A DNA stretch of 41,485 nt, taken from the NCBI GenBank assembly GCA_021845885.1, contig JAJZVB010000004.1:1-41485 (forward strand), in the 5' to 3' direction. The notes below the pieces were generated by a model, which did not search any database, was not told the origin of the DNA, and saw only the letters and a program-made list of their open reading frames with translations. Positions within the stretch are counted from its first letter, which is position 1. The number at the start of each line of letters is the position of its first letter. The position numbers and the translations under genes were made by a program. Shown here one piece after another: positions 9,119 through 35,485 of this stretch. This DNA is from Pseudomonadota bacterium. GTDB taxonomy: Bacteria > Pseudomonadota > Gammaproteobacteria > Burkholderiales > JABEVD01.

Positions 9119-9194
9119 GGGTCGTTAGCTCAGCCGGTAGAGCAGCGGACTTTTAATCCGTTGGTCGCCAGTTCGAATCTGGCACGACCTACCA
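9119..9194 (+). tRNA. tRNA-Lys (anticodon UUU)
   Basis: This 76-base cloverleaf has acceptor stem GGGTCGT pairing with ACGACCT (first pair G-U), D arm AGCTCAGCCGGTAGAGC, anticodon arm GCGGA-CTTTTAA-TCCGT giving anticodon TTT, T arm GCCAG-TTCGAAT-CTGGC, discriminator A, and an encoded CCA (9192-9194). It is the first of a tandem pair; its first 33 bases are identical to those of the second copy. Confidence 0.97.
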
Positions 9195-9210
9195 TTGGAA
9201 ATCGTTATTC

Positions 9211-9286
9211 GGGTCGTTAGCTCAGCCGGTAGAGCAGCGGACTCTTAATCCGTTTGTCGACAGTTCGATCCTGTCACGACCCACCA
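9211..9286 (+). tRNA. tRNA-Lys (anticodon CUU)
   Basis: This 76-base cloverleaf begins 16 bases after the first tRNA. The acceptor stem is GGGTCGT with a perfectly pairing ACGACCC. The anticodon arm GCGGA-CTCTTAA-TCCGT gives anticodon CTT, the T arm is GACAG-TTCGATC-CTGTC, the discriminator is A, and CCA is encoded (9284-9286). The identical 5' half and single-base anticodon change indicate duplication of a Lys tRNA and specialisation for AAG codons. No clear terminator hairpin with a U-tract follows. Confidence 0.97.
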
Positions 9287-19607: not shown

Positions 19608-22600
19608 TCATCCCGATGAAAGCGTCTTCCCTTCCACAAGGAACAAGGCGATTTGCTCGGGCGGAACAGCGGGGCTGAAGAGATAGCCCTGGATCTCGTC
19701 GCACTCGAGCGCTTTCAATTGCGCCGCCTGCCCCATTGTTTCCACCCCTTCCGCGATCACCTTCATGTCGAGGGAATGGGCGAGCGAAATGATGCTCGAG
19801 ACGACGCCGAAATCGTCCGGACTGGTGTTCATGTTGACGATGAAGGAACGGTCTATTTTCAGCGAATTGACGGGAAGCCTTGCAATATAGCTGAGCGACG
19901 AATAGCCGGTTCCGAAATCGTCCACTGCGATTTCCATGCCCATTTCCCTGATTGTGAAAAGCTTTTTCATGTTCTCCTCGATGTCCTGCATGAGCAGGCT
20001 TTCCGTGATTTCCAGGTCGATGCGGGAAGCCCAGTTTCCGACCGCCTTTTCAACCTTCTCCACGAAATCCTTCTGCTTCAGCTGGAACGGCGAGACATTG
20101 ACAGCCACCCTGAGGGATTTCGAGCCGCTTTCGCCCCACTTCAGCGAATCGGACACCGCCTTCTCCAGCGCCCAGCGGCCGACTTCGAGTATCATGCCGG
20201 TCTCCTCGAGAAGCGGAATGAATTTCACAGGGGAAATCAGCCCGCCCTCGGGATCCTTCCATCTTATCAGCGCCTCGAGCGCGGTGATGCACCCGCTTCC
20301 CAGGTCGACCTTGGGCTGGTAATAAAGCACGAACTGGTCCTCTTCGAGCGCGCGCCGCAGCCTGTTCTCCATGGTCAGCTTTTCAGCCACCCTGGCGTTG
20401 ATTTCCGGGTTATAAAAGAGATATTTGTCGCCTGAAAGCTTGGCCTTTTTCAGGGCGGCCTCCGCATTCCTGAAAAGGGTTTCCGCATTCCTGCCGTTTG
20501 CGGGAAAGAGCGCGATGCCGAACCTTGCCGCGATCCTCAGCTCCGTCTCATCTATCCTGAAGGCCTCGGAAAGGGAATTCTGGACGTTTTCTATGAAATG
20601 AACGACATCGGACTCTCTTTCGAAGCCGTAATATATCGCGGCGAAGCTGTCCGCACTGATCCTGGAAAAATGATGCTTTTCCAGAACGCCTGCCGATAGC
20701 CGCTCGGCGATCTGCCTGAGCAGACCGTCCCCGGCATGTCTCCCCAGGGTCTCGTTGATGATCCTGAATCTCTCCAGATCCATCACCAGCACGGCGACCT
20801 GATCGTCCGCAAGCAGGAATTGGCTGAGCCGGTCGAAGAAAAGGGTGCGGTTCGGAAGTCCCGTCAGCACATCGTAATAGGCCAGATAATTGAGCTGTTC
20901 CTCCTTGGCCAGATGGTCGAGCCCGAATGAAATGTCGCCTGCGACTTCGACGAGCAGCTTCATTTCTTCCCTGTCGAAATAGTTCGCCTCGCCGGCATGG
21001 AGAACGAACACGCCGACCTTTTCGCCCCCGACATGGATCGGAAAAACCGCGAAAGCGCGATAACCGCGTTCAAAGGCCTCCTGGCAGATTGCTGAAAATT
21101 CGGGATCGGAGGCCATGTCATTGCAGACGACAATCCCGCTTTCCTTCATCGCCCCCGAATTCAGCAACTGGCTGAAAACCTTTTCGATATCGTCATCCCC
21201 CGCCTTCGCCGCGGGCACGATCCGTTCTTTCGAAAGCATCCCTATCCAGGCCATCTTGAATCCGCCGAGTTCGGCGGCGATCCTGCAGGCCTCGTCGAAA
21301 AGCGCTTTCCTGCTTTTGACTCTGACGATCGTCGTATTGATCCCGGAAAGCACGGCATAAACCCGGTTGAGGCGCATGATTCTTCTTTCCTGCGCCTTGC
21401 GGACGCTGACGTCTCGGGCGACCGTGGAAAGATACTCGACTGATTCCCCTCCCGCCTTGTGGGCGATGATGACCTGGGAAACCGGGATCTCCATCCCATC
21501 CCTCAAAAAAGCGGTTTCCCCGCTCCATGAGCCGAATTGCACGGCATGGGGAATACCCTCTTCCATGACGATCCTGATCGCCCATTCCGGATGTATGTCG
21601 TAGAGGTTTTCGGGCTTCCTGTCGCCTATCATGGCCAAGCCAGCTCGATTGATGGAAAGGAAATTCCCGGACGGATCCGCGGTCGCCACGAAATCGGGAG
21701 TCGAGTCAATGATCGCCAGCAATCTCTGCTGCTCCTTCTCGATGCGCTTTCTCGCGGCGATTTCGAATCTGAGCTCCTTCGTCCGCTCTTCCACCAGCTT
21801 TTCCATCTTCTCATGAAGTCTTGCGCGCTCGAGCGCCACTGCAACCTGCTCCCCGATATTGTGCAGGAGCCTCAGTTCGTTCTCGCTGAATTCCCTTTCC
21901 CCGACCAGATTCATCAAGCCGATCTTTCTTTCCCCGACAAGCAGGGGAATGCTGGCATGGCGAACCCTGTTGAGATTTTCGCATTCCGGAATATTGGCCG
22001 ACTGGACGAGTTCGCCTGAAAGAAGCTTGCGCTGACACAGGCAGTCTCCCTCGCCTACCTCGGAATCCATGTTGCAGGTCGCGCCTATCCTGAAAGCAGA
22101 CTGGCCTTCGAGCAGCAATATCCATCCGGCATGCACGGAAGGCAGTTCCACAGCGCGCTTCAGAGCGGTTTCAGCAACCTCCTTCTCGCTGCCCGCCTCG
22201 TTCAGCCCTTCGGCAATCCGGTAAAGACCGTTGAGGATCTGGTTGGAGCGGGCGAGATCCCTTTCCTTCAATTTCAGTTCGTCGTTGATCCGGATTGCCT
22301 GCTCGTAGGTTGAAATCAAAAGATCCAGAATCTGCTGGCGCTCCGCGGTGATGAAATGGGTCTTGCCGCTCAGCCTGATTTCAAGCCCAAGACGCATCCT
22401 CTGATTCTGCCGCAATTCCTTGTTCATCAGCAGGTATTCGATCCTGGAGACCAGGTAACGCGCGTCATAGGGTTTCCTGATGAAATTGTCTGCACCGCTC
22501 TCCAGGCCCCTGATGACATCCTCCGAATCGGAAAGCGAAGTCACCAGGATGACCGGCACTTCCTTCAGATTCTCGTCTTCCTTGACGGCCCTGCAAAAGC

Positions 22601-22793
22601 CGTAGCCGTCGAGCTCGGGCATGAGGATGTCGCTGACGATCAGGGCGGGCTTTTTTTTCCTGGCGATTTCCAGAGCCTGCCTGCCGTTTTCGGCGACTTC
22701 GGTGGCATAGCCCTGGCCCTCGAGAAGATACTGCAGCTGTACGGCCTGGGTTTTGCTGTCCTCGGCAATGAGAACGGTGATTTTGTCTTTCAT
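19608..22793 (-). CDS. REC-GAF-PAS-GAF-GGDEF(degenerate)-EAL protein, predicted c-di-GMP phosphodiesterase
   Basis: The 1061-residue product is the last gene of the Wsp-like cluster. Order: receiver (1-125, acceptor D55 in LIVSDILMPE), helical linker, GAF (about 200-325), PAS (about 355-475), second GAF (about 485-630), GGDEF (about 640-795) and EAL (about 810-1055). The GGDEF active-site motif is replaced by SADSF, so cyclase activity is unlikely. The EAL domain keeps EALIRW, the Asn of VNVSPFQ, LEITES, DDFGTGYSS, LKIDRSF and EGVET, so it should hydrolyse c-di-GMP. In Pseudomonas Wsp the same slot holds WspR, a REC-GGDEF cyclase. It overlaps cheB by ATGA and is expected to be phosphorylated by the adjacent CheA. 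Confidence 0.9.
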   Translation of the reverse strand: MKDKITVLIAEDSKTQAVQLQYLLEGQGYATEVAENGRQALEIARKKKPALIVSDILMPELDGYGFCRAVKEDENLKEVPVILVTSLSDSEDVIRGLESGADNFIRKPYDARYLVSRIEYLLMNKELRQNQRMRLGLEIRLSGKTHFITAERQQILDLLISTYEQAIRINDELKLKERDLARSNQILNGLYRIAEGLNEAGSEKEVAETALKRAVELPSVHAGWILLLEGQSAFRIGATCNMDSEVGEGDCLCQRKLLSGELVQSANIPECENLNRVRHASIPLLVGERKIGLMNLVGEREFSENELRLLHNIGEQVAVALERARLHEKMEKLVEERTKELRFEIAARKRIEKEQQRLLAIIDSTPDFVATADPSGNFLSINRAGLAMIGDRKPENLYDIHPEWAIRIVMEEGIPHAVQFGSWSGETAFLRDGMEIPVSQVIIAHKAGGESVEYLSTVARDVSVRKAQERRIMRLNRVYAVLSGINTTIVRVKSRKALFDEACRIAAELGGFKMAWIGMLSKERIVPAAKAGDDDIEKVFSQLLNSGAMKESGIVVCNDMASDPEFSAICQEAFERGYRAFAVFPIHVGGEKVGVFVLHAGEANYFDREEMKLLVEVAGDISFGLDHLAKEEQLNYLAYYDVLTGLPNRTLFFDRLSQFLLADDQVAVLVMDLERFRIINETLGRHAGDGLLRQIAERLSAGVLEKHHFSRISADSFAAIYYGFERESDVVHFIENVQNSLSEAFRIDETELRIAARFGIALFPANGRNAETLFRNAEAALKKAKLSGDKYLFYNPEINARVAEKLTMENRLRRALEEDQFVLYYQPKVDLGSGCITALEALIRWKDPEGGLISPVKFIPLLEETGMILEVGRWALEKAVSDSLKWGESGSKSLRVAVNVSPFQLKQKDFVEKVEKAVGNWASRIDLEITESLLMQDIEENMKKLFTIREMGMEIAVDDFGTGYSSLSYIARLPVNSLKIDRSFIVNMNTSPDDFGVVSSIISLAHSLDMKVIAEGVETMGQAAQLKALECDEIQGYLFSPAVPPEQIALFLVEGKTLSSG

Positions 22794-23821
22794 GGTCTCG
22801 CCCTTTTGTTCGCCATGGCGGCAAGGAACGGCGCGATATGTTCGGGCGCGAGAACGTAAGTCGCGCCATCGAGCCTGAGCGCTTCCCCGGCCATGCCGTA
22901 TACGACTGCGCTTTCCCTGTCCTGAACGAAAGTGACCGCTCCCTTTTCCTTCAGGAGCTTCATTTCCCGGGCGCCGTCCCTGCCCATTCCTGTCAGCAGT
23001 CCCGCCACGGAAGCGGGACCGAAATGGTCCGAAACCGACCGGAAAAGAAAGGAAACGGAAGGCCTCAGGCCGTTCTCAGGATCGTCGAGGGTGAGCGAAA
23101 TCCTGCCGCCTTTTTCCACCTTCATCTGATAGCCGTCAGGGGCGATGTAAACGCGCGAAGGCGCCATGACCTCTCCATGCCTCGCCAGGGCGACGGGCAG
23201 AGCGGAAGTCTGGGAAAGCCATTGCGCGAATCCCTGAAGGAACCCTGCAGCCATGTGCTGAACGATCAGGATGGGCAGGGGAAAATTATTCGGCATGGCG
23301 GACAGGATGCCCTGGAGCACCGGCGGCCCCCCCGTCGATGCGCCGATGGCGACGAGCTCGACAGCTGTCTCGGTCCGGGAGGAAAGGAACTTTCCCTTCG
23401 GCCAGCGCCTCACCAGTTTCACTTCGGCCATCGCCTTCACAACCTGGACAAGCTCCATGGCGCAGGCCTCCTGGTCGGGATGACCCAGGCCGGGAGGGCG
23501 CGGGACGAAAGCCAGGGCGCCGGACTCCATGGCATTGAATGTCGTTTTCACGTCTTCCGGATCGGCGCTTCCGCTCACGATGATGATGGGAATCGGATAT
23601 ATTTCCATGATTCTCCGGGTCGCATCCAGGCCACCCATTTTCGGCATGTGAACATCCATGGTGATGACATCGGGCCTGATGCGCATCGCGTTCTTTATGG
23701 CCTCCTCGCCGTCGGAGGCCATTCCGACGACGCTGATGCCGGGCGAGCTTTCCAACACGTGGACCAGCCATTCCCTGGCCACCCGGGAGTCTTCCACCAC
23801 CATCACCCTGATCTCTTTCAT
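22790..23821 (-). CDS. cheB: CheB-type methylesterase (WspF-like)
   Basis: The 343-residue product has an N-terminal receiver (D56 in VITMDVHMPKMGG) and a C-terminal methylesterase with the catalytic triad S162 (GASTGG), H189 (VQHM) and D282 (GMGRDG). It would demethylate or deamidate the MCP of the cluster and so set the signalling level of CheA. The conserved receiver Lys is replaced by Arg in LAFVPRPPG, a small departure that may alter phosphorylation. Junctions with cheA upstream and the EAL gene downstream are both ATGA overlaps. By position and partners it is the WspF equivalent; loss of WspF in Pseudomonas locks that system on. Confidence 0.92.
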   Translation of the reverse strand: MKEIRVMVVEDSRVAREWLVHVLESSPGISVVGMASDGEEAIKNAMRIRPDVITMDVHMPKMGGLDATRRIMEIYPIPIIIVSGSADPEDVKTTFNAMESGALAFVPRPPGLGHPDQEACAMELVQVVKAMAEVKLVRRWPKGKFLSSRTETAVELVAIGASTGGPPVLQGILSAMPNNFPLPILIVQHMAAGFLQGFAQWLSQTSALPVALARHGEVMAPSRVYIAPDGYQMKVEKGGRISLTLDDPENGLRPSVSFLFRSVSDHFGPASVAGLLTGMGRDGAREMKLLKEKGAVTFVQDRESAVVYGMAGEALRLDGATYVLAPEHIAPFLAAMANKRARP

Positions 23822-25800
23822 ATCAGCCTTCCCACGGTCTCGACGAGATTGCCCCGGTCGAAACCGCCCTTGACGATATAGGCATTCGCGCCGGCTTCGA
23901 TGCCCCGCTCCCGATGCTCCCTGGAGTCGAGCGCGGTCACGAGCACCACGGGAAGCGAGGAAAGATTTTCGTCCGCACGGATTCTGGCCGTGAGTTCGAA
24001 ACCGTTCATTCTGGGCATGTCGACATCCGAAACGACGAGATCGAATGATCCCTTTTTCAAATGATTCAGCGCATCGACGCCGTCCACGGCCGTATCGACC
24101 CTGTATCCCGCGGACTCCAGGATTCCCTTCAGGAGGGTTCTGGACGTGATCGAATCCTCCACCACGAGGATGGCCTTGAATTTTTCCTCTTCCAGAGACG
24201 GGGTCACGGACCTCGCCGAAGCCGATTTCATCAGGTCGGATGCATTCAGGACGGGCACGATCTCGCCCGTGCCGAGCAGACAGGCGCCGGCGACATTCCT
24301 GACCCGGACGAGCTGAGGGCCCAGAGTTTTGACGAGCACTTCCTGCTCGCCGAGAATCTCGTCGACCTTGAACCCGAAATGCGCCCCTTCCCGGCCCAGC
24401 ACGATCACCTTCACGGGGTCGGCCTTCGACTGCGGGCCTGCAATCCCGAGCACGGCGACAAGGCTGAAGAGCGCAACCGCCTTCCCCTCGATTTCGGCGG
24501 ATTCCACATTTTCCACGAGCCTGATTTCCCTCCTTTCCACTCTCGCCGCCTTCGCAATGCTTGCGGAAGGAATGACGAAAAGCCTGCCTCCAGCGCGAAC
24601 CAGCACGCCCCTGAAAGTGGCGAGGGTCAATGGCAGGACAAGGCGGAAAACCATGCCGCTGCCGCCGGGGTCGACTTCAATGTTTCCCCCCAGCTTTTCG
24701 GTTTTTTCCTTGACGATGGCGAGCCCCAATCCCCGCCCTGAGATATCGGTGACGGAAGGGCTCGCCGTCACCCCCGACTTGAAAAGAAGCGACGCCATCT
24801 CCCCGGGCCCGACCTTTTCTTCCGGGGAAAGGAACCCGAGCCTGATTCCGGATGCCTTCACTTTCTCGACATCGATTCCGGCCCCGTCGTCGGATACGGC
24901 GATTTCAACCTTTCCGCCTTCTTTCTGGCTCAATGCAATCATGATCCTGCCTTGCGGCGGCTTCATCCTGGCGATTCTCTCTTCCGGAATTTCTATGCCG
25001 TGATCGGCCGCATTGCGCAGCAAATGGATGAGCGGCTCCTTGATTTCCTCCAATATCCGCCTGTCGATCTCGATTTCCCCTCCCCTGATTTCGAGATCGA
25101 TCTTTTTCCCGAGTTCCTTCGAGATCTCCCGAACGAAGCGGGGGAACGCATCGGATACGGAAGAAAAAGGCATCATGAGCATTTCCCTCGCATCGGAAAG
25201 GAGCGCTTCGATCAGGGCTGAAAAGCTGAGCAAATCCTGTTCTGCGATTTTCCTGAAAGCGCTCATGCGCGATTCGGCAGCCTTCATGGCCAGCGTCAGG
25301 TCAGCCCCCTTGCCGGGCAGGCGGAGCATGCCGAGCATTTCGTCCAGGTCCTTCAATCTCTGCTGCTCGGCGAGCCTGGGGAAAAGCAGCTCTTCGGCCC
25401 GCCTCATGACCGTCCCCAGCTTCCTTACGTCAACCCTGACCGTTTCGCTTTCGACCCCTGCAGGTTCGGCGCCCTGGGGCTTCGGGAGCAGTCCAACGAT
25501 ATCATCGACGGCCTCCTGGATTCCCAGGAGCAACTCAGGGGAAACTTTTATTTTCCCGCTTTTCATTTGCGAGAACAGGTCTTCCAGAGACTGGCAGGCA
25601 TGCTCTATCTGCGTCATGTTCACCGCCCTTGCCGCCCCTTTCAGGCTGTGCGCCTCGCGGTAGATCCTTTCGACGATTTCTTCCCGCATCCCGGGCGTAT
25701 CCCTCAAGGCGGTGACGCAGGACGACATCGCCTCGACATGTTCGAACGCCTCGACCCTGAAGGTCGCAGTCAATCTGGAAAGGAAATCGCCTTCTTCCAT
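23818..25800 (-). CDS. cheA: CheA-receiver hybrid histidine kinase (WspE-like)
   Basis: The 660-residue product has an N-terminal Hpt domain with phospho-acceptor H51 (REAHSLKGAAR), a kinase core with LIHLLRNAADHGIE, DDGAGID and GRGLGLAIVKEK, a CheW-like regulatory domain (about 395-525), and a C-terminal receiver (about 540-660, VVSDVDMPRMNG). There is no obvious separate P2 domain. The fused receiver is the hallmark of WspE and other alternative-function CheA proteins, and may act as a phosphate sink or relay. It follows the MCP gene with no gap and overlaps cheB by ATGA. Its likely targets are the receivers of CheB and of the EAL protein. Confidence 0.92.
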   Translation of the reverse strand: MEEGDFLSRLTATFRVEAFEHVEAMSSCVTALRDTPGMREEIVERIYREAHSLKGAARAVNMTQIEHACQSLEDLFSQMKSGKIKVSPELLLGIQEAVDDIVGLLPKPQGAEPAGVESETVRVDVRKLGTVMRRAEELLFPRLAEQQRLKDLDEMLGMLRLPGKGADLTLAMKAAESRMSAFRKIAEQDLLSFSALIEALLSDAREMLMMPFSSVSDAFPRFVREISKELGKKIDLEIRGGEIEIDRRILEEIKEPLIHLLRNAADHGIEIPEERIARMKPPQGRIMIALSQKEGGKVEIAVSDDGAGIDVEKVKASGIRLGFLSPEEKVGPGEMASLLFKSGVTASPSVTDISGRGLGLAIVKEKTEKLGGNIEVDPGGSGMVFRLVLPLTLATFRGVLVRAGGRLFVIPSASIAKAARVERREIRLVENVESAEIEGKAVALFSLVAVLGIAGPQSKADPVKVIVLGREGAHFGFKVDEILGEQEVLVKTLGPQLVRVRNVAGACLLGTGEIVPVLNASDLMKSASARSVTPSLEEEKFKAILVVEDSITSRTLLKGILESAGYRVDTAVDGVDALNHLKKGSFDLVVSDVDMPRMNGFELTARIRADENLSSLPVVLVTALDSREHRERGIEAGANAYIVKGGFDRGNLVETVGRLI

Positions 25801-27261
25801 TCATTTCGCCCCGATCATCTCCCCGAGATGCCTGCCGAGTTCGTGCAGATTGCGCGCTGCAGCCTCGGCCTGTTTCGTTCCCGCCACATTCTGCTGGCTG
25901 GCCTGCCTGATGTTTTCCATGGCCAGCGCGACCTGGTCCATTCCCACCATCTGCTGCTGGCTGGAAGCGGCAATCTGGATCGAAGCCTGGGCGGCCTCGT
26001 TGATGCTTTCCGAAAGCAGGCTGATCGATTCCCCGGCTGCACGGGATTGCCTGACCCCTTCTTCCACGACCTTGGCACCCTGCTCGGCGGCAAGGGCGGC
26101 AGATGAAGTGCCCTTCTGGATTTCAGTGAGGATGGATCTTACCCTGGCTGTCGCCTGTTTCGACTGTTCGGCCAGGTTCTTGATTTCCTGCGCCACGACG
26201 GCGAATCCTTTGCCGTGCTCTCCGGCCTTGTTCGCCTCGATGGCGGCATTCACGGCAAGGATGCTGGACTGCTCGGCAAGATCGTTGACGCTGACGATGA
26301 TCTCGCCGATCGTCTGTCCCTGTTCCGAAAGTTCGACGATCCGCTCCGCGATCTGCGCCATTCTGTCCTGGATGCCCTGCATCACCTTGACCGAGTCATC
26401 CACGGATTTCTTCCCTGCGACGGCGGTTTGCGAAGCTTTTTGAGCACTTTCGGAAACGTTCTTCGCCTTTTGGCTGGCCAGCTGGGCGGTCTGCTTCACT
26501 TCCTCCACTGTGGCGGTGGTTTCGCTCACGGCGGTGGCCGTCTCGGCGGCACCCGATGCGACCTGAGTGGTGGTGGCGAGTATCTGGCTGGATGATGAAG
26601 CCAGCTGGTTAATGCTTTCCTTCAACTGAACGGAAATCGATCGGGTGACGAAATAGCCGAGCAAGGCCAATGCGGCAATGGCCGAGGGAATGCCGTAAAG
26701 AATGGCCGAGAGGGTGGCCCGAGCGCCCGAATTTTCCTTGCCGCTCCTCGTCTTGAGCAGCCCTTCTTCTTCAGCCTGCATATCCGAAATGATTTTCCGG
26801 ATATCGTCCATCTCGTTCTTGCCCCTGTCCGTCCTGACAATCTGCAGGGCGGCATCGAATCCCTGATTTTTCCTCAGGTCTATGGTTTCCTTCATTTCGG
26901 CAAGCTTGTCCGAAACGAGCGGCTCCAGAATGGCGATCCGCCTCTGCTGCAAGGGATTGTCGATGGTCTGTTCGCGCAATTCCTGAAGAGACTCGCTGAT
27001 CGACGCGATGCCTGCATTGTAGGGCTGCAGATAGCTCTCCTCCCCCGCCACGAGATAACCGCGCTGGCCTGTTTCAGCGTCCTGCAATGCGGAAAGCAGG
27101 TTTCCGAGCCTGTCGAGGACCTCGAAGGAATGCGCTCTGAGCTTGGCGCCCTCGATCAGCTCCGCCGCATTGCGGTATGAAAATAGGCCCAGGACCAGCA
27201 GCATGAAAAGCGCCAGCGCATAGCCCGCGCCGATCTTCGTTCCGACAGCCCACTTCGTCAT
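25801..27261 (-). CDS. CHASE3-containing methyl-accepting protein (WspA-like)
   Basis: The 486-residue product has membrane helix 1 (about 11-28), a periplasmic CHASE3-type sensor (about 35-175, with DAETGQRGYLVAGEE), membrane helix 2 (about 185-205) and a long cytoplasmic signalling coiled coil. The hairpin tip is canonical (NDLAEQSSILAVNAAIEANK, then GKGFAVVAQEIKNLAEQS). No clear HAMP domain is present: helix 2 runs almost directly into the coiled coil. No CheR-tethering pentapeptide is seen at the C-terminus (ends LGEMIGAK). It sits between the second CheW and CheA, whereas wspA is first in Pseudomonas, so the order is rearranged. Confidence 0.9.
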   Translation of the reverse strand: MTKWAVGTKIGAGYALALFMLLVLGLFSYRNAAELIEGAKLRAHSFEVLDRLGNLLSALQDAETGQRGYLVAGEESYLQPYNAGIASISESLQELREQTIDNPLQQRRIAILEPLVSDKLAEMKETIDLRKNQGFDAALQIVRTDRGKNEMDDIRKIISDMQAEEEGLLKTRSGKENSGARATLSAILYGIPSAIAALALLGYFVTRSISVQLKESINQLASSSSQILATTTQVASGAAETATAVSETTATVEEVKQTAQLASQKAKNVSESAQKASQTAVAGKKSVDDSVKVMQGIQDRMAQIAERIVELSEQGQTIGEIIVSVNDLAEQSSILAVNAAIEANKAGEHGKGFAVVAQEIKNLAEQSKQATARVRSILTEIQKGTSSAALAAEQGAKVVEEGVRQSRAAGESISLLSESINEAAQASIQIAASSQQQMVGMDQVALAMENIRQASQQNVAGTKQAEAAARNLHELGRHLGEMIGAK

Positions 27262-27274
27262 TTCATTTCCTCCT

Positions 27275-27853
27275 TCATGCGCTTTCGTCGACGATCAATC
27301 TTCCGTCCTCCGTCAGCTTCCCGACATCGAGAATGATGAGGTGGTCCGGTGCCACGCCTAAAACATGGTCCGTTCCGGGAAGTGGCTGCTTCACGAGGCT
27401 TCTCGGGATGGCATGCACGCCGAGAATGGCATCCGCCAGGATGCAGAACCGCATTTCGCCCTGCTCGAGAACGACAAGCCTGTTCATGTCGGTCAGCCCC
27501 CTTTTGGGAAGCCCGAGGAATTTTTCCAGATCGACGACTGAAAGTATTTCCCCGCGGATGTCGACGATGCCCGGAACGAAATCAGGCGTGCAGGGAAGCG
27601 AGGTCAGCCGCTCAAGGGGAAAAACATCCCTTACATATCTGGATTCGGCCGCATAGCGCTCCCTGCCCAGCTGAAACTCGACGACCTCGATCATCTCCCC
27701 TTCGGGAACGCCGGTCCCGCTTTCTTTGGCCAGCTGCGCAGCCCTTCTTTTCAGGATGGCCCTCACCTGTTCCGGCTCCCAGGCGCGCGCCATGGCCGCT
27801 TCCGCCGCCGCAAGGCGCTGCCTCACCGCGTCCCAGTCGATCCTAGAGGCCAT
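27275..27853 (-). CDS. cheW: CheW with N-terminal extension (WspD-like)
   Basis: CheW couples the MCP to CheA. The 192-residue product has a helical extension of about 55 residues (MASRIDWDAVRQRLAAAEAAMARAWEPEQVRAILKRRAAQLA...) before the CheW fold (about 55-190: EVVEFQLGRERYAAES, PDFVPGIVDIRGEILSVVDLEKFLGL). The extension is typical of WspD-type CheW proteins. It overlaps the end of cheR by 11 bases and is 13 bases before the MCP gene. It is one of two non-identical CheW proteins in the cluster, as in Wsp. Confidence 0.9.
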   Translation of the reverse strand: MASRIDWDAVRQRLAAAEAAMARAWEPEQVRAILKRRAAQLAKESGTGVPEGEMIEVVEFQLGRERYAAESRYVRDVFPLERLTSLPCTPDFVPGIVDIRGEILSVVDLEKFLGLPKRGLTDMNRLVVLEQGEMRFCILADAILGVHAIPRSLVKQPLPGTDHVLGVAPDHLIILDVGKLTEDGRLIVDESA

Positions 27854-29081
27854 TTACGCCCTTCCCGCCCAGCATGGCGATGATTCCTGCAAGCCGCCCC
27901 GCTGCGAACCCATCCGATTCGGAAAGGATTTCATCTTCAGGCAATTTCTCGAGCAGGATCCTGGCATTATCGAAATGGGATCCGGCCTCCCTGCCCCGGT
28001 TCTGGGAAAGACACAGGCTGCCCAGCGCAAAATGGGCGAGGATGAAATCCGGATCGAGATAGAGCGTCTTTCTGAGCTCCCTTTCCCCCTCGCTGATTCT
28101 TCCCATCTCGTGCAAGATGCTGGCGAATAGATAATGCCTTTTCGGGTCGAGCCTTTCCGATTCGATCGCCTTTTCGCACCAAATGACGGCTTCATCGAGC
28201 TTTCCCCGATCAGCGCACGATCTCGCCATCAGGCAGGCGTCGGGAAGGATTTCGATCTTCTTTTCAGGACAGGATGCAGCCGGCTTTTCCTTCGGCTTCC
28301 TATAGAATACGGCACCCGGGAAATCGACGGATTCGAAGCGATGGAAAAGGGCTTCGGAAAGTTCCGCGGGGCTCACGACGAGCCAGCCGTTTTCAACTGC
28401 AGCCCCGTACAGCCTGTTTGCTGCGCTCTCCTGCATTTCCGGGCTGAAATACATCAGCACGTTCCTGCACAAAATGATGTCCATGCCTTCGGGATAGGCA
28501 TCTTCCACGAGATTATGTCTGGAAAATCGCACCATTTCCCTGATGCGGGGAAGAAGCTCGTAACCCTTCTCCTTTTTCCTGAAATAGCCGCTGATCCAGG
28601 AAGGGACATCCCTGAACGACCATTCGCCGTACAGGCCTTCTGCGGCCTTTTCCAGGAAGCGGGGATTGATGTCCGTGGCGAGGATATGGATCCCATCACG
28701 CCCGCGAGCCATCCTGTCGAGCAGCATGGCGATGGAATAAGGCTCCTCTCCGCTGCAGCAGCCTGCGCTCCATATCCGGATCGAAGCCCTCGTTCTCAGG
28801 AGTTCAGGCAACACTTCGAGCTCCAGCGCATCGAAAATTTTCCCGTCCCTGAAAAAATAGGTCTCGCCCACGGTCAAATGGCTGGCGAGTATTTCAATTG
28901 GCTCGCGCCCGGCCCTGCCTGAAAGAAGCCATGTTGCGCAGGCATCCTCCCCCGGGAATCCGAGATCCTTTGCCGCTAGAGCCAATCCCCGTTCGAGATC
29001 CGCCCTGCGCTTCCGGGGAAAATAGAGCCCGACATGAGCGGAAAGCAGCTTGCTCAACGGCTCATAAAAAGCATCCTGCAT
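27843..29081 (-). CDS. cheR: CheR methyltransferase with TPR tail (WspC-like)
   Basis: The 412-residue product has the CheR N-terminal helical domain (1-80, HVGLYFPRKRRADLERGL, LTVGETYFFRD), the SAM-binding fold (WSAGCCSGEEPYSIAM, ILATDINPRFL, MDIILCRNVLMYF), and a C-terminal extension (about 300-400) with TPR-like repeats (KRHYLFASILHEMGRISEGERELRKTLYLDPDFILAHFALGSL). CheR-TPR architecture is characteristic of WspC and related alternative chemosensory systems. It methylates glutamates on the MCP. It starts at the base after the upstream cheW stop. Confidence 0.92.
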   Translation of the reverse strand: MQDAFYEPLSKLLSAHVGLYFPRKRRADLERGLALAAKDLGFPGEDACATWLLSGRAGREPIEILASHLTVGETYFFRDGKIFDALELEVLPELLRTRASIRIWSAGCCSGEEPYSIAMLLDRMARGRDGIHILATDINPRFLEKAAEGLYGEWSFRDVPSWISGYFRKKEKGYELLPRIREMVRFSRHNLVEDAYPEGMDIILCRNVLMYFSPEMQESAANRLYGAAVENGWLVVSPAELSEALFHRFESVDFPGAVFYRKPKEKPAASCPEKKIEILPDACLMARSCADRGKLDEAVIWCEKAIESERLDPKRHYLFASILHEMGRISEGERELRKTLYLDPDFILAHFALGSLCLSQNRGREAGSHFDNARILLEKLPEDEILSESDGFAAGRLAGIIAMLGGKGVNGL

Positions 29082-29528
29082 TCAGGTGCACTCCATGGCC
29101 AAGTCGAGCTGCATCCTTTCCTTCCCGGAAAGGAATGCCTCTAGATCTTGGATGAGCACCAGATCCTCCCCGATTCGGGCAATGCCGCCGATATGCTCCA
29201 GCCCGGGATGAATGCATTCGGGTTCGATGATTTTTTCGCATTCAACCACCTCCCCGATTGAATCGGCTATCAGGCCCACCCTGCGCTTTTCGGTATGGGC
29301 GAGAATGATCCTGTCGGTCAACGCAAGCGCCTTCGCGGGAAGGCCGAAGCGGCTTCGGATATTGAATATGGGAACGATTTTTCCCGCCAGGTTGATGACG
29401 CCTTCCACGATCTCGGGGGCGCCAGGCAAGGGGGTGACCTCCACAGAAGGAACGATCCTGTCCACTGAGGCTAGCGGCAGGGCATAATGCAATTCGGACA
29501 GGGAAAACAGGAGCAGCCGGCCATTCAT
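29082..29528 (-). CDS. cheW: Short CheW (WspB-like), first gene of the chemosensory set
   Basis: The 148-residue product is a single CheW domain (LLLFSLSELHYALPLASVDRIVPSVEVTPLPGAP, EIVEGVINLAGKIVPIFNIRSRFGL). It lacks the extension of the second CheW, matching the WspB/WspD pairing. It is 85 bases downstream of phcQ on the same strand. That gap is short enough for read-through from the phc genes but long enough to hold its own promoter. Confidence 0.9.
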   Translation of the reverse strand: MNGRLLLFSLSELHYALPLASVDRIVPSVEVTPLPGAPEIVEGVINLAGKIVPIFNIRSRFGLPAKALALTDRIILAHTEKRRVGLIADSIGEVVECEKIIEPECIHPGLEHIGGIARIGEDLVLIQDLEAFLSGKERMQLDLAMECT

Positions 29529-29621
29529 GACGATTCCGTTATCTTATTCGTCTTTCCCCTTTAGCACATATCCATTAAAAGGCAAGCAAAACTGTCAGGA
29601 TTTACAGGTGCCATTACCTGT
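29529..29621 (-). promoter_or_regulatory. phcQ-cheW junction with short hairpins
   Basis: A perfect 6-bp inverted repeat ACAGGT/ACCTGT (29604-29609 and 29616-29621) spans the phcQ stop codon. A second short stem CTGT/ACAG followed by TTTT can form just after it on the minus strand. They are too weak to call a terminator with confidence; partial attenuation between the quorum-sensing and chemosensory halves is possible. The rest of the gap is A+T-rich, but no promoter box close to consensus stands out. Confidence 0.3.
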
Positions 29622-30567
29622 CGCAAAACTGGCTGATCCAGGCGGCGATCCTCGATGCGGACAATGCCTTTCCGGACGAGGCCACGATCATGCCTTCGAG
29701 GCTGCCTTCGTTTTTCTTCAGCTGCAGCGACCGTCCCGTTCCATGCAGCCGGATGAGGAAGGCGAGCCAGGCAACATGCTGCTGAGAGACTTGTGAATCG
29801 GAAGGGGTTTCCAGGAATTCGGAGAAATCGGGCGCGTTTTCAAACAAAACGGCCCCGTTGCCCGAGATTTTCGCGCCGATTTCGAGAAGCAGATCCGCTT
29901 CCCCCTGCAAGCCGGTCTCGCCCAGCCTGTTTTTCAATGCCAGTCCGAATTGGCCGGCGCGCAAGGCTTCCGCCGCGACCAGATCGGAATAATCCATCAG
30001 CAGCCAGTCGGGCTCGGGCGGGTTGACACCGACGGCAGAAGCGGCAGAAAGATAGTCCTCAAGGACCGAGGCCGATCCTGCAAGAGGATGGCACAATGCG
30101 TAAAGCGTGCCTATGCGGCTGGACACGGTTTGCATTTGACGGACGATCAGCTTCTCGTGCAGAAGCTGGGCATGCTCCTTGCGCAGAGCGGCCAATTCGA
30201 GCGCCTGCTTCAATTCCATTCTCAGGGCCGATATTTCCCAGGGTTTCTGGATGTATCGATGGATCTGCCCCTGATTGACCGCCTCGACGGTCTGCTCGAG
30301 TTCGGAATAAGCCGTGGTCAGGATCCGCACCATGTGAGGATACCGGGTTCGCGCGTAGACCAGCAGCTCGTTGCCGAATCCTCCCGGCATGCGCTGGTCC
30401 GAAACCAGAACGGTCAGCGTCTCTCCATGCTCGTCCAGCTTCCGCATGCCCTCCTCCACAGTGCAAGCTGTAACAACAGGGGCCAGCGAATCGATTGCAC
30501 GCTGGAAATATTTGACTGCCGTGGCCTCATCGTCGACGAACAGGATTAGCGGGGCATTGTCGGTCAT
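29614..30567 (-). CDS. phcQ: PhcQ-like response regulator
   Basis: The 317-residue product has an N-terminal receiver (APLILFVDDEATAVKYFQRA, acceptor D57 in VLVSDQRMPGG, then ILTTAY and YIQKPW) and a helical C-terminal region of about 190 residues with no DNA-binding or kinase motif I can recognise. This matches PhcQ of the Ralstonia phcBSRQ operon, where PhcQ relays quorum-sensing state to PhcA-controlled genes. ATG 30567 was chosen because it overlaps the phcR stop (ATGA) and starts MTDNAPLILFVDDE; a longer frame inside phcR is rejected. The name rests on gene order and architecture. Confidence 0.75.
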   Translation of the reverse strand: MTDNAPLILFVDDEATAVKYFQRAIDSLAPVVTACTVEEGMRKLDEHGETLTVLVSDQRMPGGFGNELLVYARTRYPHMVRILTTAYSELEQTVEAVNQGQIHRYIQKPWEISALRMELKQALELAALRKEHAQLLHEKLIVRQMQTVSSRIGTLYALCHPLAGSASVLEDYLSAASAVGVNPPEPDWLLMDYSDLVAAEALRAGQFGLALKNRLGETGLQGEADLLLEIGAKISGNGAVLFENAPDFSEFLETPSDSQVSQQHVAWLAFLIRLHGTGRSLQLKKNEGSLEGMIVASSGKALSASRIAAWISQFCDR

Positions 30568-31643
30568 GAATCGCTCCTTTTGATAGCCGGAAAGTTGAGT
30601 GTGACGGCAGTATGGATGTCCGGTTCCGAGTGGATCAGGATGCTGCCTCCGAATGACTGCATGATGCGATTGCAGAAAATCATCCCCCATCCCTTTCCGC
30701 CTTCATCCGCATGGGTCGTGACGGGATCACGCATCAGGCGCTCAAGAATGTCGGGGGAAATGCCCGAGCCGTTGTCGACGATGCGTATCTTCGGGCTGTC
30801 TTCCACAAGCACGGTGAAGCAAATCATGGGCGAAGGCTCGCCCTTGATGGCTCGAAGCGCGTTGCCGAGCAGGGAGGACAATACCAGAAGGACGCAATTG
30901 GGCAGGACCATGACCGGGAAATCTTCGAGTATTTCCGTCCGGACCAAGGCCCTCTGGGCTGGATTCAGCGGATAGGTGTCGAGCAGGGATGAAATCAATT
31001 GCCGCGCAGTGCTGTATGCCTCATGGGTGACCGAACCCGCCCCCTGGATCGATTCGGAAAAGGTGGAAAGCAGGGTCAGGCAATAGCCGGCATTGTCGTC
31101 TATGGCCTTCAGGGCTTTCGCGACCTCCGGCTGGCTGGTCCTTCGAGCGATGCCCCTTGCAAAATTGATGATCGTGGCAAGCGGGGTATTGAGTTCATGC
31201 CCGAGAAAAGCGAGCGTCTCGTCGATGGCCTTCAGCCTTTGATGCCTTGCCCTGCGTTCGCGTGAAAGCTCGTCCGCCAGGCGCAGGGCTTTCCTGACCT
31301 CATCGAAATCCAGAGGCTTTTCGAGTATCCTGAAAATTTCGCCGGAATTCACCGCATCGAGAAGCACATCCCGGTCTGCAAATGCAGTCACGAGGATGCG
31401 GACAGCCTGCGGGAAATCACGGGCTGTCTGGCGCAGCAGATCCCCCCCATCCCTTCCCGGCATGCGGTAATCCGTGACCAGTATGTCCACTCTTCTGCCT
31501 AGCAGGATGTCGATCGCGGCATCGGCGCCGGATGCGGTCAGCACCGAATAGTCGGTGCCGAAGGCGCGGGCGAAGTATTTCCCGGCCATGTCTTCGTCAT
31601 CCACATACAGGATCACGGCGGCGGATTCATCCCGGTTCATCAT
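30564..31643 (-). CDS. phcR: PhcR-like receiver-histidine kinase
   Basis: The 359-residue product reverses the usual hybrid kinase order. An N-terminal receiver (ILYVDDEDMAGKYF, D58 in ILVTDYRMPGRDGG, K109 in EKPLDF) is followed by a histidine kinase with H149 in FLGHELNTP and an ATP-binding domain (LLGNALRAI, VDNGSGISP, GGKGWGMIFCNRI). There is no membrane segment, so it is cytoplasmic. In Ralstonia PhcR has this same architecture and is the partner of PhcS. Both flanking junctions are ATGA overlaps, so phcS, phcR and phcQ are tightly coupled. Confidence 0.78.
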   Translation of the reverse strand: MMNRDESAAVILYVDDEDMAGKYFARAFGTDYSVLTASGADAAIDILLGRRVDILVTDYRMPGRDGGDLLRQTARDFPQAVRILVTAFADRDVLLDAVNSGEIFRILEKPLDFDEVRKALRLADELSRERRARHQRLKAIDETLAFLGHELNTPLATIINFARGIARRTSQPEVAKALKAIDDNAGYCLTLLSTFSESIQGAGSVTHEAYSTARQLISSLLDTYPLNPAQRALVRTEILEDFPVMVLPNCVLLVLSSLLGNALRAIKGEPSPMICFTVLVEDSPKIRIVDNGSGISPDILERLMRDPVTTHADEGGKGWGMIFCNRIMQSFGGSILIHSEPDIHTAVTLNFPAIKRSDS

Positions 31644-32962
31644 CCGGCCCTCGGCAAATCAAAAATCATTTTCGTCCATTCGCCATATGCACTTTCCGCA
31701 ACCAGCGTTCCCCCATGCCTTTCGATCACGCCGTAGCTGATGGAAAGGCCCAGGCCGAGCCCCTGGCCGATTTCCCTGGTGGTGAAAAAGGGTTCGAACA
31801 CCCGGTCCAGATTCTCGGGTGCAATGCCCGGACCATTGTCCTGAACCGTGACGAAAAGCCGGTCGCCCCGCCATGCTGCGGAAAGATGGATGGCAGGCTC
31901 GACCCGTTTCGCTGAATGCAGCGCAAGGGCCGAATTGCCGAGCAGGTTGACCAATACGCCGATGACGGCCGCCTCGTCCCCCCGCACCAGCGTGTCCTCC
32001 GGCATATCGCGCGTGATCGAAATACCCCTGGTTTCGTGGCCGACCAGACGAAGCGCAGAATCGGCCACTTTCCCGAAAAGGAAATCGTTCCTTTCCGTTT
32101 CCCCGGTCCGATAAGCGAATGTCTTCAGGTCCGAAACGATATGCTGGATCCGCTGCATCCCCTGCCTGGCATCCATCAGGCATTCCTTGAGCGAATCGCT
32201 GACCCTGGCAACGGGGTCTTCCATCGCGACTTCCATCGCCATCAGGCAATAATTGACCGGATTGTTGACTTCGTGCAAGAGACCTGCGGAAAGCGTGCCT
32301 ATGGCGGCCATCTTTTCCTGCTGCAGCATCTGCCCCTTGATTTGCGCGAGATTCCTGTTGGTTTCTTCAAGCTCGCTGTTCTTCCTCGACAGCTCCGCCT
32401 TGAGCCGGAAAAGCATGTAGCGGGTATGTTCGTTGAAATAGGCGCTGACTGCGCTGACGGCGATGACGAAGGCGAGAAACAGCACATTGATGAGAAAAAC
32501 CCCGTGCAGAACGAAGCTTCCGGGATGCAGGGCGCATACTGCAATATAAAACAGGAAAGTCACCAGGCTCAAGAAGAGGTTATGCCAGAAGCTGAAAGGC
32601 AGCCCGATGCTGGACGCGAAAATGGCGAGGTAGAGACCGATGCTGTACATGGATCTCGCCCCGTCGGTTTCGGCAATCATCCAGGCGATCATGATCTGCG
32701 GCAAGAGAAGCCAGAGCAGCGAGAGCATATCCGTGGCGTCCCGGGACCATTTTGCCTTCATCACGAGGATGACGCCGTAAATCATCAGCGAAACGAGCAG
32801 CCGAACGGCGCCGAACTCGTACAACTTCTGCGGATAAAGCGCGTAATCCAGCCCCACGCCAAGCAGGATGAGAATGATCCCCATGTATGCGCAGGCTATA
32901 CTGAAGTTTAGGCGGAATCCCTTGATTTCATTCTGATATTCAGTATATCTCGGCCCGCTCAT
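31640..32962 (-). CDS. phcS: PhcS-like six-helix sensor histidine kinase
   Basis: The 440-residue product has six membrane helices (about 20-38, 52-70, 80-97, 104-120, 130-146, 153-175), a short coiled linker and a HisKA/HATPase core: H230 in LLHEVNNPVNYC, LLGNSALAL, VQDNGPGIAPENL and GQGLGLGLSISYGVI. The helical sensor with almost no periplasmic loops is the PhcS/LqsS/CqsS type, which detects small lipophilic autoinducers. PhcS senses 3-hydroxy fatty-acid methyl esters made by PhcB, and its gene is 17 bases after phcB here. The LqsS/CqsS alternative is less likely because no LqsA/CqsA synthase is present. Confidence 0.78.
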   Translation of the reverse strand: MSGPRYTEYQNEIKGFRLNFSIACAYMGIILILLGVGLDYALYPQKLYEFGAVRLLVSLMIYGVILVMKAKWSRDATDMLSLLWLLLPQIMIAWMIAETDGARSMYSIGLYLAIFASSIGLPFSFWHNLFLSLVTFLFYIAVCALHPGSFVLHGVFLINVLFLAFVIAVSAVSAYFNEHTRYMLFRLKAELSRKNSELEETNRNLAQIKGQMLQQEKMAAIGTLSAGLLHEVNNPVNYCLMAMEVAMEDPVARVSDSLKECLMDARQGMQRIQHIVSDLKTFAYRTGETERNDFLFGKVADSALRLVGHETRGISITRDMPEDTLVRGDEAAVIGVLVNLLGNSALALHSAKRVEPAIHLSAAWRGDRLFVTVQDNGPGIAPENLDRVFEPFFTTREIGQGLGLGLSISYGVIERHGGTLVAESAYGEWTKMIFDLPRAG

Positions 32963-32979
32963 GAATGGGTATCAATCGC

Positions 32980-34368
32980 TCACGCGACGGTCATTTCCGC
33001 AAAAACGTTCACCCCCGTGGCATCGACAAAGATGCTGTATTCCCGGGATGCGGGAGGAAGAAGCGAAGCGAGCCCCGCCTCGTCCCGCAGGATCAGATAC
33101 CACTCGAGCAAATGCTCCATCACGAATTTCATCGGATTGACCGAATGGACATTGGTGACCAGGAGCATGCCCCCCAAATGCGTGCGCGCAGCAAAATGCC
33201 CTATGAGTCTCGCGCAAACCTTGTCCGACAGATAATCGAAAAGACCGGCGCAGTACACGGCGTCGAATTCCCTTTCGTCATGAGAAGGATCGATGCGGCG
33301 CTTGAGCAGCTTGTGGACGGAGTCATGCACGTAATCGATGGAAACCGGCTTGGCCGTCTGCGCGATGACGGATGAAAGTTTATTTCTGGTCCAGTCCAGC
33401 GTTTCTTCGCTGAAATCGACGAGTTCGAAGGAAAGGAACTCGGGCTGCGGATGACTTTGCAGAAAACGCTGTATCTCGATGGCCGGACCGCACCCCACAT
33501 TCAGGATGCGGAAAGGCCTCCCGGCCTGTCTCGCCTTTTCCGCAAGCCGGTTCAGAAAGTCCACCAGAATGACGATGCGGTTGCGGTGAGCCTCCGCCAT
33601 GGGTGTTTGCAGGAAAGCCGCATTCACCATCTGGAAATACGTGGAGGGCCCCCTGCGCGGATCGTCGAGGATCTGGTTGACCATCTGGTAGTCGCCGGCA
33701 TAGCCCAGGGGCTTCATGTAGGTTCTGAAAACGAAGGGCGCGCGCAGCAGAAGCGGATGCAGGGCGGATTGGGCATAGGCGCGATGCGATGAGGACAGCT
33801 CCGCATCGACAAGGGATGCTTCCCCGTTCAATACATCGAGATAGCGTTGCGCCTTCTGCATCAGGGGATCGAAAAGTTCGAAAAACACGTCTTCCCTGAG
33901 CTGACCTTCCGCCTTGGGAAGCGATTCGGAAAGATCCACCTGTTCGATCCAGCGAGAAACATCGGAGAGGTAGGCGCGCATCTCGTTCACCACGATCTGG
34001 TAGTCCCGCCTGATCTGGAAACGCCTCGTCCAGTCCTCGACGAATGCCTGCGCTTCGGCCCCCACAGTGCCTGGCACCGCATCGACATCGTTCAATTCGC
34101 GCCATTCGTCGATGAGCGTCACCGAAACGATCGCGGTAAGGCCCGTATTGACCAGGCTGATGACGACAGCCTTGCCGAGGTAGGCTATCCTGGCGCCGAA
34201 TCTCACCGTGAATTCGCCGAGCACTTCGCTGACCTGCACGATGGAATAGGGATTGTATACCTCCATCACGAGGGATTTTCTCTGCAGGTTGACGATCGTC
34301 CCCCTGACAGCTTCGCCCTCTGCGTTGCGGAAACTCACCAGCGGGTCAATTTGTTTTTGTGTATGCAA
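32980..34368 (-). CDS. phcB: PhcB-like signal synthase (methyltransferase)
   Basis: The 462-residue product ends in a class I SAM-dependent methyltransferase (motif I RILNVGCGP at about 288-296, LVDFSEETLDW, FDAVYCAGLFDYLSD). Before it lies the helical region with YMKPLGYAGDYQMVNQI (about 217-233), a hallmark of the PhcB family that methylates 3-hydroxy fatty acids to the Ralstonia autoinducers 3-OH PAME/MAME. The first 95 residues are beta-rich and resemble a PilZ-like barrel without the RxxxR and (D/N)xSxxG c-di-GMP motifs. The frame has no ATG near its start; TTG 34368 is the best start, with a weak ribosome-binding site. It heads phcBSRQ. Confidence 0.8.
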   Translation of the reverse strand: MHTQKQIDPLVSFRNAEGEAVRGTIVNLQRKSLVMEVYNPYSIVQVSEVLGEFTVRFGARIAYLGKAVVISLVNTGLTAIVSVTLIDEWRELNDVDAVPGTVGAEAQAFVEDWTRRFQIRRDYQIVVNEMRAYLSDVSRWIEQVDLSESLPKAEGQLREDVFFELFDPLMQKAQRYLDVLNGEASLVDAELSSSHRAYAQSALHPLLLRAPFVFRTYMKPLGYAGDYQMVNQILDDPRRGPSTYFQMVNAAFLQTPMAEAHRNRIVILVDFLNRLAEKARQAGRPFRILNVGCGPAIEIQRFLQSHPQPEFLSFELVDFSEETLDWTRNKLSSVIAQTAKPVSIDYVHDSVHKLLKRRIDPSHDEREFDAVYCAGLFDYLSDKVCARLIGHFAARTHLGGMLLVTNVHSVNPMKFVMEHLLEWYLILRDEAGLASLLPPASREYSIFVDATGVNVFAEMTVA

Positions 34369-34486
34369 AGTATCTCGGGAAATGGGACGACCAGATCCTT
34401 GTGGTTAAACATAGTCATGTAGCGCTACAATAACAGAAAGACTGCTATACGAAAACCGGAGCGTCAAGCGCGTCATATTGCGGCAA
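34369..34486. promoter_or_regulatory. Divergent phcB / LqsR-like control region with 12-bp palindrome
   Basis: This 118-base spacer must hold both divergent promoters. Its clearest feature is TGTAGCGCTACA (34418-34429), a perfect 12-bp palindrome roughly midway between the two starts. On the plus strand TACAAT (34426-34431) overlaps its right half and could be a -10. No near-consensus -35 is seen for either direction, suggesting activator-dependent promoters. The palindrome is a candidate operator; no regulator can be named. Confidence 0.5.
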
Positions 34487-35485
34487 ATGGACAATCGCCT
34501 ACCTGTTTACAGCTACCCGACATTGACCGTGCTGATCGATGACAGCCGGAGTTTTCTGGACAGTCTGGCCTTCCAGCTGAACCCGAGGATAGGGTACAAG
34601 ATATTTCACGATACCCGGGAAACGCTCGACTGGCTTCACGACGCTCAACGCTATGCCGCCATAAGCGATCCGATCTATGCCAAATCCGATGAATTGTCGC
34701 AATTCTTCGAAAGGCACAGCGCCTCCATCGATCTCAGCCGGATCTACCATATCGCGATGAACCGGCAGCGTTTCAGCCTGCCGACCGTGCTGGTCGTCGA
34801 CTACGCGATGCCCCGGACGAACGGGCTGGAATTGTGCCAGGCGGTGCAGGGCCTGCCCTGCAAGAAAATATTGCTGACCGGACAGGCCGACGAAAAGGTT
34901 GCCGTCGAGGCCTTCAATCGCAATCTGATCGATCGATTCATCAAGAAACAGGACCCCAATGCACTGAATCGCCTTGAAGAAGAAATCGTCCGGTTGCAGA
35001 AGGATTTCTTCAACGAGCGGACAAGCACGCTGAAGGACCTGCTTCTTGACGAGACCTATTCCTTTCTGTCCGACCCGGCCATGGGTTCGCTCGTCGCCCG
35101 GATCGGCAGCCGCTACCGCTTTGTCGAGCACTATCTTTTCCCTCACCCCTCAGGCATCCTTTTCTTCGATATCCGAGGCAAGGCCACATTGATGGTGATA
35201 GAAACAGCAGCGGGACTGATTTCCCATGCCGAGATCGCCGAGGATCAGAATGCCCCTCCCGAACTGCTCTCAGCCCTGAAGGCATTCAGGCTGGTGCCTT
35301 TCTTTTCCGACACGAGCGGGATGTATTCGGATGCGATCAGCCACGACTGGCTCTCCTACTGCCTGCCGCCCCAGATCTGCCATGGCCGACAGGATTATTA
35401 CTGGGCATTGTTCGATCTGCCTTCCCATTATCTGAAAGGCACGGTCTATCCCTATGCGGAATTCCTGAAAACGCAATCGATCTGA
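34487..35485 (+). CDS. LqsR-like response regulator
   Basis: The 332-residue product starts with receiver-like TLTVLIDDSRSFLDSL. The acceptor Asp is not reached until D105 (VLVVDYAMPRTNGLEL) because about 50 extra residues, mostly helical, are inserted in the receiver. ILLTG and the conserved Lys (RFIKKQ) follow. The C-terminal 150 residues carry no DNA-binding motif. A receiver with such an insertion and a non-DNA-binding C-terminal domain matches LqsR, the Legionella quorum-sensing regulator. ATG 34487 is chosen; TTG 34478 is an alternative that would put the Asp at 108. It is divergent from phcB and ends 4 bases before the convergent nfu stop. Confidence 0.6.
   Translation: MDNRLPVYSYPTLTVLIDDSRSFLDSLAFQLNPRIGYKIFHDTRETLDWLHDAQRYAAISDPIYAKSDELSQFFERHSASIDLSRIYHIAMNRQRFSLPTVLVVDYAMPRTNGLELCQAVQGLPCKKILLTGQADEKVAVEAFNRNLIDRFIKKQDPNALNRLEEEIVRLQKDFFNERTSTLKDLLLDETYSFLSDPAMGSLVARIGSRYRFVEHYLFPHPSGILFFDIRGKATLMVIETAAGLISHAEIAEDQNAPPELLSALKAFRLVPFFSDTSGMYSDAISHDWLSYCLPPQICHGRQDYYWALFDLPSHYLKGTVYPYAEFLKTQSI

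Follow-up and report, generated by a model that had tools for sequence, protein, structure and literature searches.

Which signal does an LqsR-like response regulator serve when its gene stands next to phcB? The question is raised by the window, a stretch of 41,485 nucleotides from a Burkholderiales assembly (contig JAJZVB010000004.1), for which a preliminary description proposed either a hybrid of the Phc and Lqs signalling families or an LqsR-like protein serving fatty-acid ester signals. Both the LqsR-family regulator and the Phc locus proved real, and such a combination was first published in 2023; what is new are the lineages, the divergent arrangement and a clue about the kinase. The features of the locus are listed below.

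34487..35485, plus strand: lqsR/phcX, LqsR-family response regulator, 332 aa (ATG at 34487, stop at 35485)
34369..34486, no strand: intergenic region common to the divergent phcB and lqsR, 118 bp
34426..34445, no strand: TACAATANCAGAAAGANTGC, conserved element between phcB and lqsR, shared with two same-genus MAGs and two Candidatus Nitrotoga
32980..34368, minus strand: phcB, PhcB-type SAM-dependent methyltransferase, presumed 3-hydroxy fatty acid methyl ester synthase, 462 aa (TTG start)
31640..32962, minus strand: phcS, sensor histidine kinase, 440 aa
30564..31643, minus strand: phcR, receiver plus histidine kinase, 359 aa, kinase domain of LqsS type
29614..30567, minus strand: phcQ, receiver protein (start at residue 42 of a longer ORF, set by comparison with relatives)

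The product of the gene at 34487-35485(+) is a complete response regulator of the LqsR family. A phmmer search of all PDB chains returned LqsR (6sy9_A, E 7.5e-41, residues 5-307) as the sole full-length match, the runners-up covering the receiver or parts thereof at E 0.002 and weaker. An AlphaFold model built from 35 aligned sequences (pLDDT 86.6, pTM 0.85) superposes on LqsR 6SY9 with a Z score of 30.6 and an rmsd of 2.7 over 299 residues, insertion and C-terminal half included, at 28-29% identity in the structural alignment; Foldseek gave an E value of 1.7e-27 for the same pair. The second-best structure entry for the whole model (Z 19.7) matches the receiver only. The receiver residues D18, D19, D105, T131 and K154 are all present, and none of them varies across the 35 aligned relatives. 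Translation from an alternative TTG start at 34478 yields 335 aa, in which the acceptor D105 becomes D108.

The preliminary description had attributed to this protein about 50 inserted residues ahead of the acceptor aspartate and a C-terminal domain free of DNA-binding motifs, both as LqsR traits, and had named the structural comparison with LqsR beforehand as a test. Both traits were recovered. In the model, beta-3, which carries D105, begins at residue 99 and is preceded by a helix (43-59) and an extra, partly disordered segment of about 40 residues (60-98). Since plain receivers align with only about 120 of residues 10-178, an insertion of the claimed order is real. Predicted alone, the C-terminal domain matches 6SY9 (Z 13.3) and every other entry at 4.7 or less, and Pfam gives for this half nothing but a sub-threshold Sigma54_DBD match (14.7 bits against a cut-off of 22.8), taken as chance. 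Neither a C-terminal half unlike LqsR nor an uninterrupted receiver was thus seen. A GGDEF-like output, reported for LqsR in the available part of PMC10653808, was not recovered in the structure search with the isolated C-terminal domain, though the domain may still have such an output. The only Pfam name above cut-off is Response_reg, which would also suit a mere receiver protein with no relation to LqsR; the full-length sequence and fold match refutes that explanation and leaves it virtually no probability. Full-length similarity to the solved LqsR, a receiver insertion with an intact active site and an LqsR-type C-terminal domain lacking a DNA-binding motif are found together in this protein.

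The neighbouring genes form a Phc operon, in which phcB, phcS, phcR and phcQ occur in that order, and the LqsR-family gene is physically linked to phcBSRQ, as is characteristic of PhcX. The assignment of the neighbour as phcB, also made at the outset, was borne out by 64-70% identity over the whole length to PhcB of Ralstonia-like and Cupriavidus-like genomes (genus inferred). Counting the window, seven clade-A loci have phcB next to lqsR, and in these the phcB-lqsR intergenic region measures 105-234 bp. TACAATANCAGAAAGANTGC has a single match in the window against a mean of 0.01 in shuffles, and among 266 loci matches to a near-identical pattern are confined to the phcB-lqsR intergenic region. 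The element is a possible candidate for a promoter or operator of lqsR; a promoter scan gave no signal above chance. Eight LysR-type matches occur in the source genome, and 20-kb stretches flanking the phc locus of Ralstonia-like genomes contain a 308-aa LysR; PhcA was identified among neither.

Beyond phcQ, a chemosensory cluster extends on the same strand (19608-29528, minus), comprising cheW, cheR-TPR, cheW, MCP, cheA-REC and cheB followed by a REC-GGDEF-EAL protein. This cluster is kept in one genus mate (L032), and other genes occupy the place in another (L033). A tandem tRNA-Lys pair (anticodons ttt and ctt) maps to 9119-9286 (plus) of the window.

The claim that lqsA is missing likewise held. 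The best match in the source genome to NF005526 reached 149 bits, where 428 are required, and a search with LqsA sequences found at best 91.6 bits at 24% identity, with no ortholog. As the assembly is 96% complete and in 169 contigs, absence of lqsA from the genome is likely but not certain. No LqsS-type membrane kinase lies beside the window lqsR; PhcS is of a different kinase type, and PhcR is an LqsS-type kinase fused to a receiver. LqsA orthologs are missing in 6/6 named genomes with phc-adjacent lqsR and present in 4/4 Cupriavidus-like genomes searched. In eight Oxalobacteraceae loci (L100, L102, L103, L107, L110, L112, L113 and L119), lqsS-lqsR occurs without adjoining lqsA and PhcB is found in all eight genomes; three of these were searched for an LqsA ortholog (L100, L103 and L107), and none was found.

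Six of the 80 nearest named loci have phcB beside lqsR in divergent orientation; they belong to two genus mates (the MAGs G007 and G008), two Candidatus Nitrotoga and two Methylotenera MAGs. In one of the last (Methylotenera AG31, L053 6487-7845, minus), phcB carries one in-frame TAG stop, which would mark either a pseudogene or an error in the sequence. A seventh phc-type locus, in a Gallionellaceae MAG (L044, 2788-6425), consists of phcR, a seemingly frameshifted phcS and a divergent lqsR, such that phcS-phcR adjoin lqsR; no PhcB match was found in this genome, and the locus is possibly a receiver-only remnant. The other loci are lqsA-lqsS-lqsR clusters (60), lqsS-lqsR pairs without lqsA (8) and loci with neither synthase beside lqsR (5). 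In the Ralstonia-like group (g177), phcB is adjacent and lqsR lies upstream and co-directional in 16/16 genomes. In the Cupriavidus-like group (g93), lqsR is divergent and 10-18 kb from phcB on the same contig in 18/22 genomes, and the two genes are on separate contigs in 4/22. Genome G401 has two LqsR paralogs (L193 and L194), one within an lqsA-S-R cluster and the other downstream of phcQ. In G476, phcBSRQ is directly followed on the opposite strand by lqsS and lqsA (L264, 4333-12314), so that both signalling systems share one locus; its lqsR lies 15 kb away.

More distant relatives were also recorded. The small genomes G048, G344 and G396 (family f41) each encode several LqsR-like proteins with 24-31% identity to the window LqsR; neither phc nor lqsA was found near the one G048 copy whose neighbourhood was inspected. 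Viral contigs yielded no relative. Fifteen plasmid records carry LqsR-like proteins, all at 46% identity or less, and a full-length PhcB occurs on one plasmid record, from Paraburkholderia graminis.

Across genomes, LqsR copies without a neighbouring lqsA occur mostly where phcB is present. In a survey of 399 genomes of the order, LqsR was found in 29 and PhcB in 9, all nine being within the 29. In 200 genomes of family f32, LqsR was found in 54, PhcB in 44 and both in 41, that is, LqsR in 41/44 genomes with PhcB versus 13/156 others; the three remaining PhcB genomes have no LqsR at the cut-off used. PhcB was searched in 64 of the 80 named genomes (the 16 left out all have lqsA adjacent). It was present in 17/20 genomes having lqsR without adjacent lqsA versus 20/44 with lqsA adjacent (Fisher p 0.003), and in 11/14 versus 20/44 when the six phc-adjacent genomes were set aside (p 0.037). 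These tests treat relatives as independent, so significance is overstated, and the counts rest on few families.

LqsR could nonetheless act independently of the Phc pathway, with an unlinked kinase or a small phosphate donor driving it; its proximity to phcB would then reflect shared locus ancestry only. According to the available part of PMC10653808, 81.4% of the genes shared by the phcX and phcA mutants of Ralstonia moved in opposite directions, and deletion of phcX left the expression of phcA and the phc genes unchanged; PhcX may therefore act beside Phc rather than within it. Moreover, in a 1.5-Mb MAG (L052, 386-2945) without a PhcB match, lqsR is divergent from an LqsS-type kinase with a different N-terminal part. 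Against this explanation, the linkage recurs in differing orders (divergent, upstream co-directional and downstream of phcQ), and the nine genomes of the window's genus have either both phcB and lqsR (3) or neither (6). We regard it as unlikely.

By sequence, the kinase domain of PhcR is sister to that of LqsS, and the PhcS domain is not. The PhcR domain matches LqsS with 28.6% identity over 255 aa (E 3e-17), and PhcS matches LqsS more weakly (E 1e-8). PhcR and LqsS domains group with support of 99/98 in a 49-row tree and of 99/99 in a 61-row tree (61 of 208 domains, thinned by identity and including 20 background kinases), in which grouping of PhcS with PhcR (p 0.010) or with LqsS (p 0.008) was rejected. 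Fifteen HisKA kinases were found in the source genome, and apart from PhcS and PhcR none of these, 13 in number, belongs to the LqsS/PhcR clade; PhcR is therefore the only LqsS-type kinase found there by the HisKA search. Lqs-linked and phc-linked LqsR proteins have a similar first receiver helix, consistent with one kind of kinase partner. Shortly past the phospho-histidine, LqsS and PhcR have different residues; common descent of the two kinases therefore does not imply common targets, and the difference tells against simple identity of targets.

The other kinase has its own claim: PhcS might phosphorylate LqsR directly, PhcR being a side branch or phosphate sink. PhcS is the published ester sensor in the accessible parts of PMC8578825 and PMC11960443, and its gene has stayed adjacent to lqsR in the Gallionellaceae MAG without a PhcB match. 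That locus retains phcR too, however, and its phcS looks frameshifted; in addition, the PhcS kinase domain lies outside the LqsS/PhcR clade. Direct phosphorylation by PhcS is accordingly improbable, somewhat more so than a regulator standing outside the pathway.

We favour, with a probability of roughly 0.55, a PhcX-like locus in which a Phc operon and a divergent LqsR deprived of its Lqs partners form a signalling route from the ester through PhcS and PhcR to LqsR. In this route the LqsR-family regulator would have lost lqsA and lqsS, and PhcB would make a 3-hydroxy fatty acid methyl ester. Sensing of the ester by PhcS would alter the phosphorylation of PhcR, the LqsS-type kinase domain of which would phosphorylate LqsR at D105. 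The C-terminal domain of LqsR would then act via protein contact or a nucleotide-related function rather than by DNA binding. From linkage, co-occurrence and kinase kinship we infer that the window LqsR serves a fatty-acid ester signal; we likewise infer the ester itself, each phosphotransfer step and the output of LqsR. By analogy with Ralstonia, where PhcQ is placed on PhcA (PMC13320629, in part) and phcR deletion has mild effects (PMC8578825, in part), a second branch of the output may run through LqsR. The opposite PhcX and PhcA regulons fit two branches rather than a simple line. The three f32 genomes with PhcB but no LqsR at the cut-off used, and the LqsR of f49 genomes, which is distant and not phc-linked, speak against the relay.

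How the pairing arose was addressed with trees comprising 59 of 140 extracted LqsR sequences plus Legionella LqsR in the first instance and 47 of 140 in a later one. The window LqsR forms a group (95/96) with the sequences of its genus mates, Nitrotoga, Gallionellaceae and Methylotenera. That group clusters (97/99) with lqsA-linked LqsR of Oxalobacteraceae and Collimonas, and not with the PhcX of Ralstonia- and Cupriavidus-like genomes. A single clade of all phc-linked LqsR was rejected (p 7e-8), also when the lqs-cluster copy of G401 was allowed into it (p 2e-4; p 2.7e-4 without long rows). The PhcB tree agrees: it places the window clade (98/95) within a group (100/99) together with PhcB of Oxalobacteraceae, where lqsR is mostly lqsA-linked. 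The trees favour, without proving, an origin of the window pairing separate from that of Ralstonia. Alternatively, a single ancient phc-lqs superlocus may have broken up lineage by lineage, the window and Ralstonia sharing one linkage event. The combined G476 locus fits this history, and a clade that also admits the orphan L057, from a genome with phcB on a different contig from lqsR, was not rejected (p 0.166); once L057 is removed the rejection returns, and the nesting of the window-clade PhcB also tells against it. We consider the superlocus a tentative possibility, short of an even chance. A stronger version of the separate origin, with two independent captures, was weakened by the same rise of p on adding L057.

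The kinase kinship admits a broader reading, for which our confidence also stays below one half. Phc and Lqs might be two signal-input modules on one kinase-regulator core, in which PhcR (receiver plus LqsS-type kinase) targets LqsR/PhcX and Phc operons have repeatedly taken over LqsR. A common kinase surface would explain why LqsR was taken repeatedly and in differing gene orders, after the alpha-hydroxyketone synthase had been lost or moved. The PhcR-LqsS kinship is not stated in the available part of PMC10653808, and neither the phosphate donor of PhcX nor the target of the PhcR kinase is given in the available parts of PMC10653808, PMC8578825 and PMC13320629. The kinship would join these two gaps and is directly testable biochemically. 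It would also make PhcX a recurring link between alpha-hydroxyketone and fatty-acid ester signalling, Candidatus Nitrotoga and Methylotenera MAGs included, rather than a Ralstonia oddity.

Of the hybrid proposed at the outset, the composition stands (LqsR plus a Phc operon, without lqsA), and the idea itself had already been published for Ralstonia as PhcX. In the accessible text of that report (mBio 2023, PMC10653808), PhcX (RSc2734) of Ralstonia solanacearum is an LqsR-family regulator next to phcBSRQ, an LqsR-family gene near phc is also noted in Cupriavidus and Hydrogenophaga, and PhcX is argued to have shifted gradually from Lqs to Phc during Ralstonia evolution. New here is the divergent pairing in the window's genus, Candidatus Nitrotoga and Methylotenera MAGs; no report of an LqsR-Phc pairing in Nitrotoga, Gallionella or Methylotenera was found in the open-access literature.

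Set against the known systems, the window LqsR resembles that of Legionella pneumophila (6SY9; PMC3376566, in part) in its full-length fold, receiver insertion, acceptor position and C-terminal domain; according to the available part of PMC3376566, the Legionella acceptor is D108 and the C-terminal part has no known output domain. Unlike the Legionella Lqs locus, the window lacks lqsA and lqsS, and identity between the regulators is low (28-29%). The closest lqsA-linked LqsR proteins (60-62% identity) are those of the lqsA-lqsS-lqsR clusters of Collimonas and Gallionella MAG 25 (L045-L051 and L066), which differ from the window in having an alpha-hydroxyketone synthase and an LqsS kinase; no PhcB match was found in these genomes. 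Cupriavidus-like phcBSRQ loci share the divergent orientation of phcB and lqsR and a PhcB of 64-70% identity, but the two genes are 10-18 kb apart where they lie on one contig, and lqsA is present elsewhere in the four genomes searched. The locus is like that of Ralstonia PhcX in that an LqsR-family regulator adjoins phcBSRQ, lqsA was not found and PhcB is 65% identical to the Ralstonia-like protein. In contrast to the Ralstonia-like genomes, where the co-directional lqsR is separated by a gap of about 0.7 kb, the window lqsR is divergent and 118 bp away, and its product is closer to Collimonas LqsR (61-62%) than to Ralstonia-like LqsR (48-49%).
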